DNA of 27,390 nucleotides from a virus. Made by a program: the position numbers and the translations under genes. Positions 5,655 to 27,365 of this stretch are shown piece after piece. The DNA is taken from positions 1 to 27,390 of the IMG/VR virus record IMGVR_UViG_3300035670_001051; one strand, 5' to 3'. The notes under the pieces were generated by a model that saw nothing but the letters and a program-made list of their open reading frames with translations, made no database searches and had not been told where the DNA came from. Every line of letters starts with the position of its first letter. The stretch's first letter is position 1.

Positions 5655-6088
5655 AACCCCAACAGCTCCTTTACTGTGTTGTAAATTCTGCGATAGTCCT
5701 TGTTATACTCCAAGTAGTCGCGGCTGACGTTGTAACTATTGATAGCGGTCGAGTGATCACGCCCCAACCTGCGGCCGATTTCAGAATACCTGAGCCCGTA
5801 GTGTTGGCGTAGAATGTAAACCAACAAATGACGCGCGTCTTTTATATCTCCCTCTCTGCTAGTGGATAAAATCTGCGCAGGGGTGACATCGCACGTCAGA
5901 CAAACCGACTGCATCACCTTGGCGAAATCGTCCATCTTACTGGTAAACTTAATCTGCGGATTGAGTAGCTCATTTTTTAGGCGTGCAATAGTTTTCTCAT
6001 ACTTTGCCGTCATTGAATAAAAGCGCATCTGCAAATCCTTATACTCCCTTTTCGCTCTGCTGTATTGTTGTAAATAATCCGTAGCCAT
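5645..6088 (-). CDS. DnaA domain-IV-like DNA-binding protein
   Basis: A 147-aa protein. The N-terminal ~45 residues are a charged coiled coil. From about residue 60 it matches the DnaA C-terminal DNA-binding domain: a DVTPAQILSTSREGDIKDARHLL stretch, then the signature YSEIGRRLGRDHSTAINS (about 101-118). The AAA+ ATPase of DnaA is absent, so this is a stand-alone domain IV with a coiled-coil handle. Such proteins occur in phages, where they may recognise the phage origin or compete with host DnaA. No perfect TTATCCACA DnaA box was noticed in this window, so its target may be different, for example the 11-bp repeats at 685-926 (inference). Confidence 0.85.
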   Translation of the reverse strand: MATDYLQQYSRAKREYKDLQMRFYSMTAKYEKTIARLKNELLNPQIKFTSKMDDFAKVMQSVCLTCDVTPAQILSTSREGDIKDARHLLVYILRQHYGLRYSEIGRRLGRDHSTAINSYNVSRDYLEYNKDYRRIYNTVKELLGLCN

Positions 6089-6233
6089 CCTGTCTTAATT
6101 TTGAGTATCTTACTAGTTCGTACTTTTCGGCGTCCTTTATATAGGCCCTTAACTTATCCCTTTCTGCGATGTCTGTGATAATTATACATACATCATAAAT
6201 GTGCTTACTTATTGTCTGCTCTTTTTGTTCCAT
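6039..6233 (-). CDS. Hypothetical protein, 64 aa
   Basis: The open frame continues to 6311, but the best start is the ATG at 6231-6233, giving a 64-aa protein MEQKEQTISKHIYDVCIIIT. It overlaps the HTH gene upstream by 25 bp and the DnaA-like gene downstream by 50 bp, an unusually long overlap. The protein is charged, mixed alpha/beta, with one short hydrophobic strand (VCIIITDI) too short to span a membrane. No family is recognised. The long overlap lowers confidence. Confidence 0.55.
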   Translation of the reverse strand: MEQKEQTISKHIYDVCIIITDIAERDKLRAYIKDAEKYELVRYSKLRQDGYGLFTTIQQSEKGV

Positions 6234-6403
6234 AGATTTAGCGTTTGCTTTCCTTTTCGTTCCTGTTGTATCAAAGTGTCGTATAAATACCGCGCGTTGC
6301 TGGGGCTGCAATCCATCCGCTCGGCAACCTCTGCAAATGTGAGCCCCAAATCTTCGCGCAATACGGCAACGGCGTAGGCCTTTACCAGTGTTTTACTGTA
6401 CAT
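6209..6403 (-). CDS. Small helix-turn-helix protein, 64 aa
   Basis: A 64-aa protein MYSKTLVKAYAVAVLREDLG followed by a clear helix-turn-helix, LTFAEVAERMDCSPSNARYLYDT (about 20-43), and a basic tail. The pattern of AEVAERM, a turn, then SPSNARYLY is typical of sigma-like or MarR/LuxR-like HTH units. It probably binds DNA as a small regulator or replication accessory factor. It overlaps the upstream coiled-coil gene by 11 bp and sits just before the DnaA-like gene in the leftward operon. Confidence 0.7.
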   Translation of the reverse strand: MYSKTLVKAYAVAVLREDLGLTFAEVAERMDCSPSNARYLYDTLIQQERKGKQTLNLWNKKSRQ

Positions 6404-14067: not shown

Positions 14068-16452
14068 TTAAATAACCCACCACTGGACGCCGTCACATAT
14101 AATTTGAGCCGCTTGGTAGAGTTGGTTTAGTACTAGCGTCGTACTGCCATCAATATCCGCACCGCCTCCAGTAATGACCACAGTGTGATTTGTAGATAGT
14201 TTTTTAAAGTAGTATTTTTTCCCCTTGCTCAGCGTTGGATCAGGTAAATCGACGTTTACTGTACCACCACTAGAATCGCACAGGATAAGCTCGTAGCCGT
14301 TTGTAATAGTATGACTCCCTGCGGTGTAGGTGACTGGACTGTTGTGCTCTTGTATGTGCCAATCAATTAAGCCAGTGCTATCGGTGTACTGCAGCATTAC
14401 CTCCCAGCGTGTATTTAGCGTGGGCTGACTAGTCGGCGCACCGTCTGCATCGTTTACCAGGTATTCCAAAACTTGCTCAGGCACAAAGTCAACAGCGCCG
14501 TTTAGCTCAGCGACTGCCTCCATTGTGTAGTTAACTTTGTCGTCGTTTTTTGACGGATCAATTTTGTACCCCTCGCCTGTCGATGTAAGCCCCGAATAAG
14601 TTGGGGCAAGATATAACCACTCGCCATCCCACTGCTCAGAACGTGCAGAGAATTTACAACCATTTAACACCCATGCGCCGCCGTCAAAGTATAGGGTTTT
14701 GATTGCAGTCAGTGTGCCGCTATCTACCCAAGTGCCGCGAATCACTTGCAGAAAATCTTTATAGCAACCGCCAACAGCTGTGCCAATCATTTCGGTAAGT
14801 GTGCCATGGGTTACGGAATCCCAACCGCCGTACCAATCGGCAGCAATAACGTCAGCCGTTCCGTTGTAAGCGAATAAGGTACCGACGCCATAAATGTTAT
14901 CCGTCACATAGTGGGCAATGTCCAAATTAATCTCTGTGCTATTGAGCGCCGATGTCGTGCTAGGGCTGAACACCTCTTCGATATCAAAAACAAAATCGGG
15001 GTTTTGGTATGGCGAGGCGTCAGCTAGAGCCAACTGCACAGATCCCCAGAATGGTTTCAATGTGCTTGCCGTAGTTTGCCATCCGCTTAATTTAGTGTAA
15101 GTTCTAACAACGCCGGCTACATATTGAATGTCCACATAGAGGCGGTCGTAACCTGTTGGCGCAGTCGTGCACTGGTGCTCAATCATGTAACTATTCCAGG
15201 TAGTTTTTTGCCCACGTGTATCAATGTTAACCTCAAATGCATTGCTGGTGTTTGACCAGTAGCCGTCATTCTGCAAATAGGAAATGGTACCACTGGAATC
15301 GCGCAGATAAACCCTGTATTGTATAATTGTTTTATTCTCAGTTTGACCGCTTGGATAGGAACGGGTGAACTTAACCAACACCTTAATGCGCATCGGCACA
15401 TCGTCGGGCGTGGTGCCTGTCGGAATGTTTAAGAACTCAGCTGCAAATAAGGTATCAGATTGATTCTGGAAAGTTCTGTACTTACTGCCTGCCAGCATGC
15501 GGCTAGTGTTTACCCTTACCAACTTTGCAGCGGGCTGATAGTATAGCGACGGCTTGGCTGCCCATTGCGGGCGTGGGCTTGCAAGTGTTTGCCTGTGCGT
15601 ATAGCTGCCAGTAGTTTGATATTGTAATGTGTAAGAGTAGCGGCGATAGGCAAGCGTGGTATTGAAGTACCCGTTAACTGGGACCATCCAATAGCCTGCC
15701 ATCTCATGAATGAACCGCACCTGCAAGGCGGCGCAAATCTGCTCCATCGCCTCGGCGCAGGTCATCATATTACTATCGGCGTAATAGGCCGCATCCACGT
15801 CGACCGCTCTCACGTCCTTCATGGGATCAAACGATTTCACAAACGCGTTGAGGTTGGCCTTCAATAAATCAATTCCTTTGCGGCTTGCCTCTGCGTTGTA
15901 GATCAGTGCGGCATCATAGAAATAATTTGTGTTAATCCCCAAAACTACCCAGTACTCGCTTAGCTCAATCTGTTCCAAACACTTGCGGAATAGGTAGGCT
16001 AAAGTTATACGGCCATCGGTAAACCAAAGGTCAGAAACCCGAAACCCTTTTAACAATTCTAGCCCGTCAACGGCTGCCAGTGATATCTGTGTTTTGGCTT
16101 GGATGGCCTCGCGCAGTCGTGTCATTTGGTCGGCAACAACTCGCCCAATCCAAATAGGCACATCCTCACGATACACAATCATCGCCCAGTTATTCTCTGC
16201 CTCTGTGCTTATGCTTAGGAAATCTGCGAGCACAGTGTTATTTGGCATTACCCATTCGGTAGTACAACGTGATGGGCGCAGGAATGATTCATAGGTTGCG
16301 CTCCCTTCCCCTGCCCTTTCAATCTCAAAGCCATTGCCTGCAAGTTGCAACTCTGTGCCTGAGGTGGTGCTACCACTTGGCGCATCCCATAACTCAACCC
16401 TGTAATCTATATCTTGCACGCTCTTAAAAGAGCCGTAGTAAATCCTTGCCAT
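14068..16452 (-). CDS. Tail tip / tail-associated protein, 794 aa
   Basis: A 794-aa protein immediately after the tape measure, beginning MARIYYGSFKSVQDIDYRVE. The N-terminal ~100 residues look like a distal-tail/baseplate-hub beta domain (YRVELWD; GNGFEIERAGEGSATYESFL), followed by mixed domains and a C-terminal beta module (HTITNGYELILCDSSGGTVN; VDLPDPTLSKGKKYYFKKLS). Position, size and composition fit the tail-tip complex that connects tube and fibre. Only this gene stands between tape measure and fibre, so several tip functions may be fused. A 45-bp gap with a weak CCCGC/GCGGG hairpin separates it from the next gene. Exact homology is not resolved. Confidence 0.75.
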   Translation of the reverse strand: MARIYYGSFKSVQDIDYRVELWDAPSGSTTSGTELQLAGNGFEIERAGEGSATYESFLRPSRCTTEWVMPNNTVLADFLSISTEAENNWAMIVYREDVPIWIGRVVADQMTRLREAIQAKTQISLAAVDGLELLKGFRVSDLWFTDGRITLAYLFRKCLEQIELSEYWVVLGINTNYFYDAALIYNAEASRKGIDLLKANLNAFVKSFDPMKDVRAVDVDAAYYADSNMMTCAEAMEQICAALQVRFIHEMAGYWMVPVNGYFNTTLAYRRYSYTLQYQTTGSYTHRQTLASPRPQWAAKPSLYYQPAAKLVRVNTSRMLAGSKYRTFQNQSDTLFAAEFLNIPTGTTPDDVPMRIKVLVKFTRSYPSGQTENKTIIQYRVYLRDSSGTISYLQNDGYWSNTSNAFEVNIDTRGQKTTWNSYMIEHQCTTAPTGYDRLYVDIQYVAGVVRTYTKLSGWQTTASTLKPFWGSVQLALADASPYQNPDFVFDIEEVFSPSTTSALNSTEINLDIAHYVTDNIYGVGTLFAYNGTADVIAADWYGGWDSVTHGTLTEMIGTAVGGCYKDFLQVIRGTWVDSGTLTAIKTLYFDGGAWVLNGCKFSARSEQWDGEWLYLAPTYSGLTSTGEGYKIDPSKNDDKVNYTMEAVAELNGAVDFVPEQVLEYLVNDADGAPTSQPTLNTRWEVMLQYTDSTGLIDWHIQEHNSPVTYTAGSHTITNGYELILCDSSGGTVNVDLPDPTLSKGKKYYFKKLSTNHTVVITGGGADIDGSTTLVLNQLYQAAQIICDGVQWWVI

Positions 16453-18326
16453 TATCCGCGTTTGCTATCTGTGTTATATCGGTTTAGTACTATCGCCAAA
16501 TCCCTGCCGCTTATGGTTGTGCTCGCCACAAATCCGCTCTGGTTGTCGGTCTTAATTAGGTTGCGCAACTTGTCAAGCGGTGCGATAACTTCTGGGTTGG
16601 TTGAGGCCCCTGGGTACTCCCCCATCAAACCCAACGTCGGCCCGCTAACAATACCACCCTCAGCAAACGCCGTAGGCTGTGGCCCTTTGTTCAGCATGTT
16701 TGTAATTACAACCGAGCCCGCAATCAAAGCAACACCCGCAGCAGCCGCAGCTATCGGGTTTTTGATTAGCAACTCCTTAAACGCTTTCGATGCCGTCGCC
16801 GTTGCAATCAATGCCTGCCCGAATGATTTCATAAAGCCAGCCACCGCAGTTAGCAAGCGCTTGCCGAATGTTTCAAAGGTATCTATTTGGCCTGTAAGCA
16901 AATCACCTAGCATCGTGCCAAAATCCTGCAGGCCTTGGGCGGTCAAACTATTAAACGCCTGATTGATTCCCTCCATAGATTTTGCAAAACGCTCTTCATA
17001 CTCTTCTTGCTTTGCGATTTGGTTTTGCATCGCATAGTCGATTTGAGTAAAAGTGTGCTCAAGTTTCTGCGGGGTTTTAATATCAATGGGGGCAACGTCA
17101 ACGGGCTTAATGCCTTGGCGTGTGCCACTGGCTGCCGTTTGAACCTCTGTCGCTTTTAATTCGTTTGCGGTTTTCTCTGCCTCTGCTAATAGTGCCGCTT
17201 GGTTTGCTTTAAAATTCTTTAAATTGACTGCACGCTGACGGGCAATCATATCGTTTTTTTCAATCTCTAAAGCAACGACCTTGCCCTGATATTCTTGGTT
17301 TATTTCATAGCGTAGATCTGCCTCAAGTTGCGTATACTTTCTAGAAATCTCGGCTATCTTTTTAGCGTCGCCATCCGCAAGGTACATTTCCTCACGTCGC
17401 TGCGCTGACAATCTATCTAGCGCCTCTTTGCCATACTGCACGTATATGGCCTTCTGCTTTTCTAAACTCGCCTTTTTTATATTGTAGATTTCCTGCTCGC
17501 TCTTACCCTCTGCCTTTGCTTTGCTTACAGCCAACTCAAGGGCTCGCTCTTCTGCTTTAATTCTGCGCTGGCCTAATGTAAGCCCACGCTCTTGCTGTTG
17601 CTCAAGTAGTGCCAATCGTTCCTTTGCCTCATCGATTGCCGCAGCGCTCTTCTGAAACAAAGTAATCACCAAGCCAATAGCAACCACCACAGCACCTGCA
17701 CCCGTAGCAATCAAAGCCACAGAGTAGGCACGGGCTGCTAGCGTAGCCTGCCCCATTACAAACGCCTGCACTTCAGTAGCCGCCGACAAAATCCCCTGAG
17801 CTACTGCGCTCTCCTGTTGTAACGCTGCCTGTATTGCAGTCACACCATTAACCAAAGCAATAGCCCCCTGCAATTTTACCATCACTTTCTGGAGATCTTC
17901 GCTTTGCAATCCAGTCATGGCAAGCGCCCCCTCTACTGCCCCAAACGCACCCGCTACCGCATTAACCCCACCGAGCACCGCATCTAAACGCCGCGTATCG
18001 CTGGCAAAGTATGACACCTCAGCCCGAGCGTCTCCAATGCTATCCTTGATTCTACCCGCCTGCTTAATGATGTCGTTGGCGGCTTGCGCAAACTCTGGCC
18101 CCAAAGCCCTTGCCTCCATCGCTAAGTTGGTCAACTGTCTGACAGTTCCCGCCGTTGGGTTTTTGGTGGCAATGTTGCTGAGCTTGTCCTGTATGTCCTT
18201 TGCGCTTTTAGCAACGTCGGCACTCATTTGGTTGCCGCTCTTTTGGATTACTGCTATCGCATCGTCGAAACCTTTTTTCAGTTTCTCAATGTCTGCGCCA
18301 ATTACTATGTTTAACGACCTTGCCAT
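16452..18326 (-). CDS. Tape measure protein
   Basis: A 624-aa protein whose length should set tail length (roughly 90-100 nm at ~0.15 nm per residue, as inference). The N-terminal third is helical and Ala-rich. A hydrophobic segment lies around 200-225 (YSVALIATGAGAVVVAIGLV), then a long coiled coil (LALLEQQQERGLTLGQRRIK onward), a second hydrophobic patch near 540-563, and the AEGGIVSGPTLGLMGEYPGA...EVIAPLDKL motif common near tape measure C-termini. No peptidoglycan hydrolase domain is seen. TAATG overlaps join it to genes on both sides. Confidence 0.9.
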   Translation of the reverse strand: MARSLNIVIGADIEKLKKGFDDAIAVIQKSGNQMSADVAKSAKDIQDKLSNIATKNPTAGTVRQLTNLAMEARALGPEFAQAANDIIKQAGRIKDSIGDARAEVSYFASDTRRLDAVLGGVNAVAGAFGAVEGALAMTGLQSEDLQKVMVKLQGAIALVNGVTAIQAALQQESAVAQGILSAATEVQAFVMGQATLAARAYSVALIATGAGAVVVAIGLVITLFQKSAAAIDEAKERLALLEQQQERGLTLGQRRIKAEERALELAVSKAKAEGKSEQEIYNIKKASLEKQKAIYVQYGKEALDRLSAQRREEMYLADGDAKKIAEISRKYTQLEADLRYEINQEYQGKVVALEIEKNDMIARQRAVNLKNFKANQAALLAEAEKTANELKATEVQTAASGTRQGIKPVDVAPIDIKTPQKLEHTFTQIDYAMQNQIAKQEEYEERFAKSMEGINQAFNSLTAQGLQDFGTMLGDLLTGQIDTFETFGKRLLTAVAGFMKSFGQALIATATASKAFKELLIKNPIAAAAAGVALIAGSVVITNMLNKGPQPTAFAEGGIVSGPTLGLMGEYPGASTNPEVIAPLDKLRNLIKTDNQSGFVASTTISGRDLAIVLNRYNTDSKRG

Positions 18327-18733
18327 TATCTGATATAGTTAATAATGAAGTCCTGTGATACCTGATAAATGCCAGAGAATCCCGCCTCGTCGTCTGTAAG
18401 TTGCAACTCACTATCAAACTCAATGGCTTGGCAACTGACGCCGTTAAACGTCCCCGGCAATGTGGCCGCCTCAAACGCCGCCCTAACTTGCTCAGCGACC
18501 GCCGTAGCGCTTGCGAAGGTTGTGCCAAAGCTATTAACCTGCACACGTGCAAAGTCGGTACGTGAGTGGCTTGTGTTTGTCGGGCTTGCCACAACACTAA
18601 CAAGGTTGTAACTGATTGCAGGGAATGCGCTTTCTTGTGGAATGCGCAAAGGGTTTAAGCGTGTACTAACCAAGGATGTGAGGCCCGCGTAGTTGCTTAA
18701 AATGTTATATACTATTTTTATAGGGGCGCTCAT
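18326..18733 (-). CDS. DUF3168-like tail terminator / completion protein
   Basis: A 135-aa protein matching the DUF3168 pattern: IVYNILSNYAGLTSLVSTRL followed by NPLRIPQESAFPAISYNLVS and TDFARVQVNSFGTTFASATA. This family caps the tail tube at its head-proximal end. It overlaps the chaperone extension by ATGA and the tape measure by TAATG. Its place between the chaperones and the tape measure is unusual; in HK97-like phages it normally lies before the tail tube gene, just after the gp10-like gene. Confidence 0.78.
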   Translation of the reverse strand: MSAPIKIVYNILSNYAGLTSLVSTRLNPLRIPQESAFPAISYNLVSVVASPTNTSHSRTDFARVQVNSFGTTFASATAVAEQVRAAFEAATLPGTFNGVSCQAIEFDSELQLTDDEAGFSGIYQVSQDFIINYIR

Positions 18734-19397
18734 GCTTTGGCGTCGGGTGTTAATTTATCAAAGACATGCGAATATAACTTAACGGCGTCCTCAATACTAA
18801 TATAGTCGGACTCCTCCCATGGAAATGTTAACAGCCTTTTCGGCTCGATTGGCTTTTTTAAGTGGGGCGCCATACTGGTAGCAACTGCCCAGCGGGTAAT
18901 TTCCCATTGGTTTTTATACTGCTGTTGCTGCGCCTCCCTCATGCCGTCAAGTTTCAGCCGCCAAAATCGTGGCGTGCATTTCCAAAACTCGGACTCACTT
19001 AACCCCATTTCGCCGTAACTGATGCGCTCAATCTTGCCCCAAGTTAGCGGTGCGCCGTCGCCCTTGGCTTTTACTTTCCCTCTGGCTCGTCGCTGGAAAA
19101 GAAGTCAGTAACCGCCTTTGTAAACCCATCCAATGCAGGGCTCAACTCTGAGAATCGTGTAACTGCGCTGCCTAACTTTTGCACTGTTGCAAATGGTGTT
19201 TTACCTCCATCCGCCTCATACCCCTCAAGGATTCCGTAGAATGCGCAAGCTAGTGCGAAGTCCATAGATTTGGCAAGGTCTTTTTGCATGCTCAAATCTG
19301 CAAAGTTTTCCATACCTGCCAACTGCATTACGTTGCGAAGGCTGTTCATGTTAAATAAAAGGGGGTGCTGAACACCCCCAATGATAATGTGGCTCAT
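18730..19397 (-). CDS. Tail assembly chaperone G-T fusion made by -1 frameshift
   Basis: A -1 shift at GGGAAAG (19080-19074) joins the 108-aa G-like product to an extension of 114 residues, giving about 222 aa. The extension begins VKAKGDGAPLTWGKIERISY, running through the region before the first in-frame ATG (19006-19008), then continues GEMGLSESEFWKCTPRFW. That last stretch is the conserved SPEEFWxxTPRE-like motif of T-domain chaperones. No independent start before the T-domain is needed if frameshifting occurs. In lambda, G and G-T chaperone the tape measure and recruit tube protein. Starting the second frame at 19008 would cut off part of the conserved region. Confidence 0.88.
19039..19080 (-). 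promoter_or_regulatory. Programmed -1 ribosomal frameshift site (GGGAAAG plus downstream stem)
   Basis: GGGAAAG is the same heptamer used by phage lambda between G and T. It is positioned as G-GGA-AAG in the G frame, immediately before the TAA stop (19073-19071). A possible stimulatory stem CCAAG/CTTGG (19067-19063 with 19043-19039) starts 6 nt downstream. The -1 frame is open on both sides. Confidence 0.88.
19071..19397 (-). CDS. Tail assembly chaperone G-like protein
   Basis: A 108-aa protein starting at the ATG at 19397 (MSHIIIGGVQHPLLFNMNSL); a longer frame would use TTG at 19415 inside a promoter-like stretch. The pattern NMNSLRNVMQLAG, then DLAKSMDFALACAFYGILEG matches short tail assembly chaperones. 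It is located after the tail tube gene and before the tape measure, as expected. It ends EPEGK-stop at the slippery site, so a minority of ribosomes should read on into the T-like frame. Confidence 0.86.
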   Translation of the reverse strand: MSHIIIGGVQHPLLFNMNSLRNVMQLAGMENFADLSMQKDLAKSMDFALACAFYGILEGYEADGGKTPFATVQKLGSAVTRFSELSPALDGFTKAVTDFFSSDEPEGK

Positions 19398-19401
19398 GCC
19401 A

Positions 19402-19409
19402 CAAATATA
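19402..19409 (-). promoter_or_regulatory. TAnnTTTG element upstream of the G-like gene
   Basis: TATATTTG on the minus strand lies in the short gap after the tail tube gene, only 4 nt before the ATG of the G-like gene. No -33 TTG is present at a normal distance, so this may be a weak promoter or a chance match. If active, the message would be essentially leaderless. Confidence 0.35.
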
Positions 19410-19421
19410 AGACAAAAAAAA

Positions 19422-19862
19422 TTAAGGAGATACAGTGCCAACAGTCAAAGCGCCAGTGCCCTGCAAAGTTCCTGTAAAGGTTGCTTTATCGTTGTTGGGT
19501 GCGCTTAATGACAAGCTGCTAAAGTAAGCAGAGCCAGTGAATTTTTCGTCGCCGCTTACGTTGGTAGTCATTACAACGGTCAAAGAAGTACCTGCTAACA
19601 AATCGCTCAAAAGGTCTTTGAATGATTGGCCGCTTGTGCTTACGCTTGCGTCTTGCTCGAAGATACCTTCGACGTTCATCGTGTAGCCATATTCGCCAGC
19701 GATAAACTCTTTAGCGCCTGCGCTATCTTTGTTAGTAACGTCGATCATATCTTTAGAAATGTCGATTGAGTGAGAGGTCGCGTTTGCGATTTTAGTCAAT
19801 GTGCCGCTGACATCCTTGTAGATGCTAATGAGCGTGCCGTTTACTGGTCCAGTAGTTGCCAT
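19422..19862 (-). CDS. Major tail tube protein (TP901-1-like)
   Basis: A 146-aa, beta-rich, cysteine-free protein starting MATTGPVNGTLISIYKDVSG. The layout (TKIANATSHSIDISKDMIDV, then TNKDSAGAKEF, and a C-terminal NNDKATFTGTLQGTGALTVG) matches the TP901-1-type phage major tail protein family, in which the ATSHSID and TNKDSxG segments are conserved. It polymerises into the non-contractile tail tube. It is followed by the frameshifted chaperones. Codon use looks adapted, as in highly expressed virion genes. Confidence 0.88.
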   Translation of the reverse strand: MATTGPVNGTLISIYKDVSGTLTKIANATSHSIDISKDMIDVTNKDSAGAKEFIAGEYGYTMNVEGIFEQDASVSTSGQSFKDLLSDLLAGTSLTVVMTTNVSGDEKFTGSAYFSSLSLSAPNNDKATFTGTLQGTGALTVGTVSP

Positions 19863-27338: not shown

Positions 27339-27365
27339 CAAATATACGTGAAAATTTGCAAATTT
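27339..27365 (-). promoter_or_regulatory. Late promoter-like element with ATTTGCAAAT palindrome before terS
   Basis: On the minus strand TATATTTG (27346-27339) lies 5 nt before the terS ATG. Twelve nt upstream is the perfect 14-bp palindrome AAATTTGCAAATTT (27352-27365), in place of a -33 TTG at normal spacing. Its 10-bp core ATTTGCAAAT is identical to the palindrome in the divergent control region at 7599-7608, so it may be a regulator-binding site controlling late genes. Confidence 0.55.

Follow-up and report, generated by a model that had tools for sequence, protein, structure and literature searches.

A predicted lambda-type programmed -1 frameshift in the tail assembly chaperone genes of a virus with an apparent Bacteroidota host

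Two overlapping open reading frames (ORFs), G and T, lie between the tail tube and tape measure genes of the virus analysed here. Are they translated as two separate proteins, or does a frameshift join them into a G-T tail assembly chaperone, as in phage lambda? The window, i.e. the whole stretch of DNA under analysis, is a virus record of IMG/VR, 27,390 bases long. Its structural module is of the HK97 type and is situated on the minus strand, with the genes in the order terminase, portal, capsid, connectors, tail tube, G, T, tail completion and tape measure; T and the tape measure gene are separated by a tail completion-like gene. The features used in the argument are as follows.

19422..19862, minus strand: gene preceding G, encoding the tail tube (major tail) protein; matches to PF06199 (Phage_tail_2), E 1.6e-16, and to phrog_1407, major tail protein.
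19071..19397, minus strand: G-like tail assembly chaperone ORF of 108 aa, with ATG at 19397 and stop codon TAA at 19071-19073; homologous family members match Phage_TAC_12 and phrog_183.
19074..19080, minus strand: slippery heptamer GGGAAAG, immediately before the G stop, in register, with conservation as described below.
19063..19067, minus strand: 5' arm (CCAAG) of a stem that may be stimulatory, with 6 nt between it and the heptamer.
19053-19056 with 19046-19049, minus strand: inner 4-bp helix of the stem.
19039..19043, minus strand: 3' arm (CTTGG) of the same stem, pairing with 19063-19067.
18730..19077, minus strand: T domain, read in the -1 frame; 115 codons counted from the AAA of the slip site, with the stop at 18730-18732; assigned from a Phage_TAC_6 match below the cut-off, aligned homologues and a helical model.
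18326..18733, minus strand: tail completion or tail terminator-like gene, following T and preceding the tape measure gene; PF11367, E 1.9e-11, and phrog_347, tail terminator.
16452..18326, minus strand: probable tape measure protein gene, 624 aa, assigned from position and length; its PHROG matches are weak, and the gene after T is annotated as tape measure in both Cellulophaga phage phi39:1 and Bacillus phage Silence.

Because all of the T relatives that came from species genomes (13 of 13) were located in contigs labelled as members of Bacteroidota, the window virus appears to be a tailed virus of a Bacteroidota host.

The initial annotation placed GGGAAAG in frame as G-GGA-AAG one codon before the stop of the G-like ORF and proposed a lambda-type -1 frameshift leading to a fused G-T chaperone of 222 aa. 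Both the register and the length were borne out. The G ORF ends with GAG GGA AAG TAA, so the heptamer is read as G_GGA_AAG_TAA, with the stop codon directly after it. In the -1 frame the open stretch is 124 codons long, 115 of them after the slip point, and translation from the ATG at 19397 with a -1 slip yields 108 + 114 = 222 aa. The heptamer as such was not rare in the window (2 occurrences vs 3.7 expected), therefore the evidence rests on its register, position and conservation. Inspection by eye of the sequence before the slip site revealed no recognisable Shine-Dalgarno-like stimulator.

We consider it very probable, judging from the sequence, that the G/T pair encodes a tail chaperone produced by lambda-type programmed -1 ribosomal frameshifting; the sequence-level predictions of this reading (register, conservation and homology) all held. 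Most ribosomes would stop at the TAA and release the 108-aa G chaperone, while a minority would make a tandem -1 slip on G_GGA_AAG (to GGG AAA) and continue in the -1 frame to make the 222-aa G-T protein, with the slip rate setting the ratio of G to G-T. Together, G and G-T would form a coat on the tape measure protein, with the T domain recruiting tail-tube subunits. At the window locus the slippage itself, its rate and the role in assembly are expected by analogy with lambda. There, both gpG and gpGT attach to the tape measure, the recruitment of tail tube subunits falls to T, and a ratio of about 30:1 is important (PMC5009743). In the GeneTack experiments, 6-7% was measured for two HK97-like chaperone genes (PMC3711429).

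Relatives of the locus were gathered by scans of IMG/VR and of species genomes. Slip-site conservation in related phages had been proposed as a check of the frameshift. We found GGGAAAG in register in 100 of 100 distinct close loci, a count of related sequences and not of independent events, and in the distant ones its only replacements were other slippery runs. In a subset of 85 loci, the third positions of G-frame codons varied in all 15 codons before the heptamer; from the heptamer onward the ten bases GGGAAAGTAA (positions 0 to +9) were invariant; and beyond these ten bases the variation fell mainly at third positions of T-frame codons. This switch of third-position variation from the G frame to the T frame indicates that the selected frame changes at the heptamer. 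We also observed that the synonymous variation in the first nine degenerate T-frame codons was 0, compared to a mean of 0.19 elsewhere in T, a value matched by none of 20,000 permutations. One relative (L117) has a T-frame stop codon directly 5' of GGG, so the T frame must be entered there at the heptamer or later.

The alternative that survives best, although we still find it highly improbable, is that reinitiation or coupling after the G stop allows T to be made independently, from the ATG at 19008 or elsewhere, and that the heptamer is incidental. The window does have this in-frame ATG, the sole candidate, at T residue 24, with a 92-aa ORF starting from it, and the G and T genes of phi39:1 were deposited as two hypothetical proteins, the kind of splitting that the initial annotation had anticipated for such pairs. 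On the other hand, an ATG at this codon was limited to 5 of the 100 close loci; within the first 45 T codons, 95 of the 100 lacked any in-frame ATG, and 28 of the 100 lacked ATG, GTG and TTG alike. The codons from the heptamer to the ATG at 19008 show selection in the T frame. Furthermore, the residues before this ATG had been suggested to be a part of the domain that a start at 19008 would truncate, and two observations agree with that. The Phage_TAC_6 match begins upstream of the ATG, and the AlphaFold2 model of T has a helix at residues 13-23, wholly upstream of Met24, within which the homologue alignment places the conserved W13-G22 block (W13, G22 and their neighbours). A separate start of T was rejected given the rarity of the ATG among relatives and the loss of the first predicted T helix that it would entail.

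Slippery sites also occur at the junctions of more distant relatives. An in-register XXXYYYZ site was present in the overlap in 49 of 49 diverged family representatives, compared to 4.5 expected from dinucleotide shuffles; this set includes phi39:1 (as L327); its A-run agrees with the pattern, but its T is shifted by +1 or -2 relative to G. For 67 distinct loci at intermediate distance, the in-register site closest upstream of the G stop was GGGAAAG in 47, AAAAAAG in 11, AAAAAAA in 4 and AAAGGGG in 1, the rest being three loci without a G ORF, where the contig was cut short, and phi39:1, which has no site in the -1 register. A Polaribacter contig had GGGAAAG at the junction. Relatives without the heptamer that keep both genes with independent starts had been named as evidence that would speak against the frameshift; in every family with a G-T frame break we found a slippery run at the junction.

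We assign a negligible probability to the possibility that the frames are joined by slippage of RNA polymerase rather than of the ribosome. Transcriptional slippage requires longer homopolymer runs, and the homopolymers in GGGAAAG do not exceed three bases; for this reason the mechanism was rejected for the window site. Most relatives carry the same heptamer. A longer run, GAAAAAAAAA (A9), is found at the G-T junction of most relatives that are Bacteroidales prophages (L157, L160-L167), where it could serve either ribosomal or transcript slippage.

It is just as hard to credit a sequencing or assembly error, or a decayed gene, as the source of the frame break in what would truly be a single ORF: a one-frame fusion does exist in L155, but the same break recurs throughout the 100 distinct close loci, which come from many metagenomes, and dozens of diverged families have it too; moreover, a -1 break is annotated in the record of phage Silence. 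The L155 locus (5692-6324, a Prevotellaceae contig) has G and T in one continuous frame, with A7 where its relatives have A9; its state is due either to a fusion that is natural and constitutive, to reverse slippage or to an assembly error.

With respect to the identity of the two proteins, the window T matched Phage_TAC_6 (PF09550) with E 0.0013-0.0014 and 19.5 bits, which is under the Pfam cut-off of 23.4 bits. In the set of T sequences, 18 of 48 members matched this family at E <= 0.1, the best of them with 7.4e-6. The window G taken alone matched no Pfam family at E<=1; in the set of G sequences, Phage_TAC_12 (PF12363) was matched by 9 of 45, with the best value 4.9e-5, and the G family also matched phrog_2115 (tail protein) and phrog_183 (tail chaperone). 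The structural model of G (pLDDT 85) was similar to many predicted viral tail assembly chaperones. The models of G and T both matched the same viral protein of 247 aa, A0A0K1LMC7, which we infer to be the joined Silence product since the lengths are equal, and the T model matched a Paenibacillus phage tail assembly protein as well. For the G model, neither a fold search of the PDB nor a second-look alignment produced a significant match, and sequence-profile searches of the PDB gave none for G or T; this speaks neither for nor against a known fold.

A 5-bp stem starting 6 nt downstream of the heptamer had also been reported, and it is indeed present (CCAAG/CTTGG). The outer stem is invariant in close relatives. 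Changes in the inner helix are one-sided, with pairing retained in all 12 distinct sequence forms and no compensatory changes among them. The stability of the stem was no greater than that of shuffled sequence (z 0.71). There was no excess of structure downstream of 55 junctions, with a mean z of -0.43 compared to -0.64 in control stretches, and a stimulatory hairpin as a general feature was rejected on this basis.

The window locus shares with lambda gpG/gpGT the pair of ORFs immediately following the tail tube gene, overlapping in the -1 frame, a G_GGA_AAG-type tandem slip site close to the end of G, the T domain without its own start and, by expectation, an excess of G over G-T. It differs from lambda in having a tail completion-like gene between T and the tape measure gene and in its apparent Bacteroidota host; also, no sequence similarity of the window proteins to lambda G and T was shown, Phage_tail_T being matched by one of the 48 T relatives with E 0.047. 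Bacillus phage Silence (CPT_Silence16/17, KT001912) is a distant homologue with a homologous T domain (tblastn E 3e-3); its -1 slip site C_CCA_AAG_TAG lies directly on the G stop, and the product is deposited as a joined tape measure chaperone. In contrast to the window, Silence has the heptamer CCCAAAG, a strong hairpin after the slip site (z -5.7) and a Bacillus host.

Cellulophaga phage phi39:1, a Bacteroidota phage, has a homologous T gene and a gene in the G position before the tape measure gene (gp19/gp20). Its junction (L151, 3940-4022) is different: an A8 run joins G and T, and T lies +1 or -2 relative to G, compared to -1 in other relatives. This relation could result from -2 slippage, transcript slippage or a sequencing error. 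The entries of gp19 and gp20 have no note of virion MS/MS detection, while most of their neighbours have one, which fits chaperones that are absent from virions.

Several elements were observed around the start of G. A terminator-like hairpin, GGGGGTG-TTCAG-CACCCCC followed by TTTTATTT, lies at 19361-19379 (minus strand), inside the G ORF and about 18 nt after its ATG. Close relatives retain the stem with the loop altered to CTAGT, and in at least one other family (L321) a GC-rich hairpin is located between the tail tube gene and G instead. The terminator-like hairpin in G may attenuate transcription after the tail tube gene. A second hairpin, TTATATTTGTGGC-ATGA-GCCACA at 19386-19409 (minus strand), has the G start codon in its loop. 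Its pairing is retained in relatives by other bases (TGTGC..GCACA, TGTGGT..ACCACA), and these changes look like covariation. The same interval contains, directly before G, a TAnnTTTG motif that resembles the Bacteroidota -7 promoter element. More TAnnTTTG motifs occur shortly before gene starts in the window, at 27346, 7583, 7145 and 673 (minus strand), and are likely Bacteroidota-type promoters. A rather speculative idea, which we think is more probably wrong than right, is that in this freshwater clade the slip site, the start-codon hairpin, the terminator-like hairpin and a clade-specific stem after the slip site make up a larger conserved RNA control region that, along with slippage, sets the tail tube : G : G-T ratio in hosts that barely use Shine-Dalgarno pairing.

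The G-T frameshift device is already well known, and the window locus is very probably another case of it. We found no published G-T frameshift in Bacteroidota phages in the open literature, which does not by itself show that none has been described. With the loci collected here, the G-T frameshift family gains many phage and prophage loci, most of them unannotated; the hosts that could be identified include Bacteroidota. The frameshift device is retained across them even as the slip site itself switches among GGGAAAG, AAAAAAG, A-runs and CCCAAAG. The G and T ORFs of such loci should be joined in annotation. Ribosomes of Bacteroidota mostly ignore Shine-Dalgarno sequences (PMC8710568), and these bacteria would be a useful system for asking what tunes slippage in such hosts.
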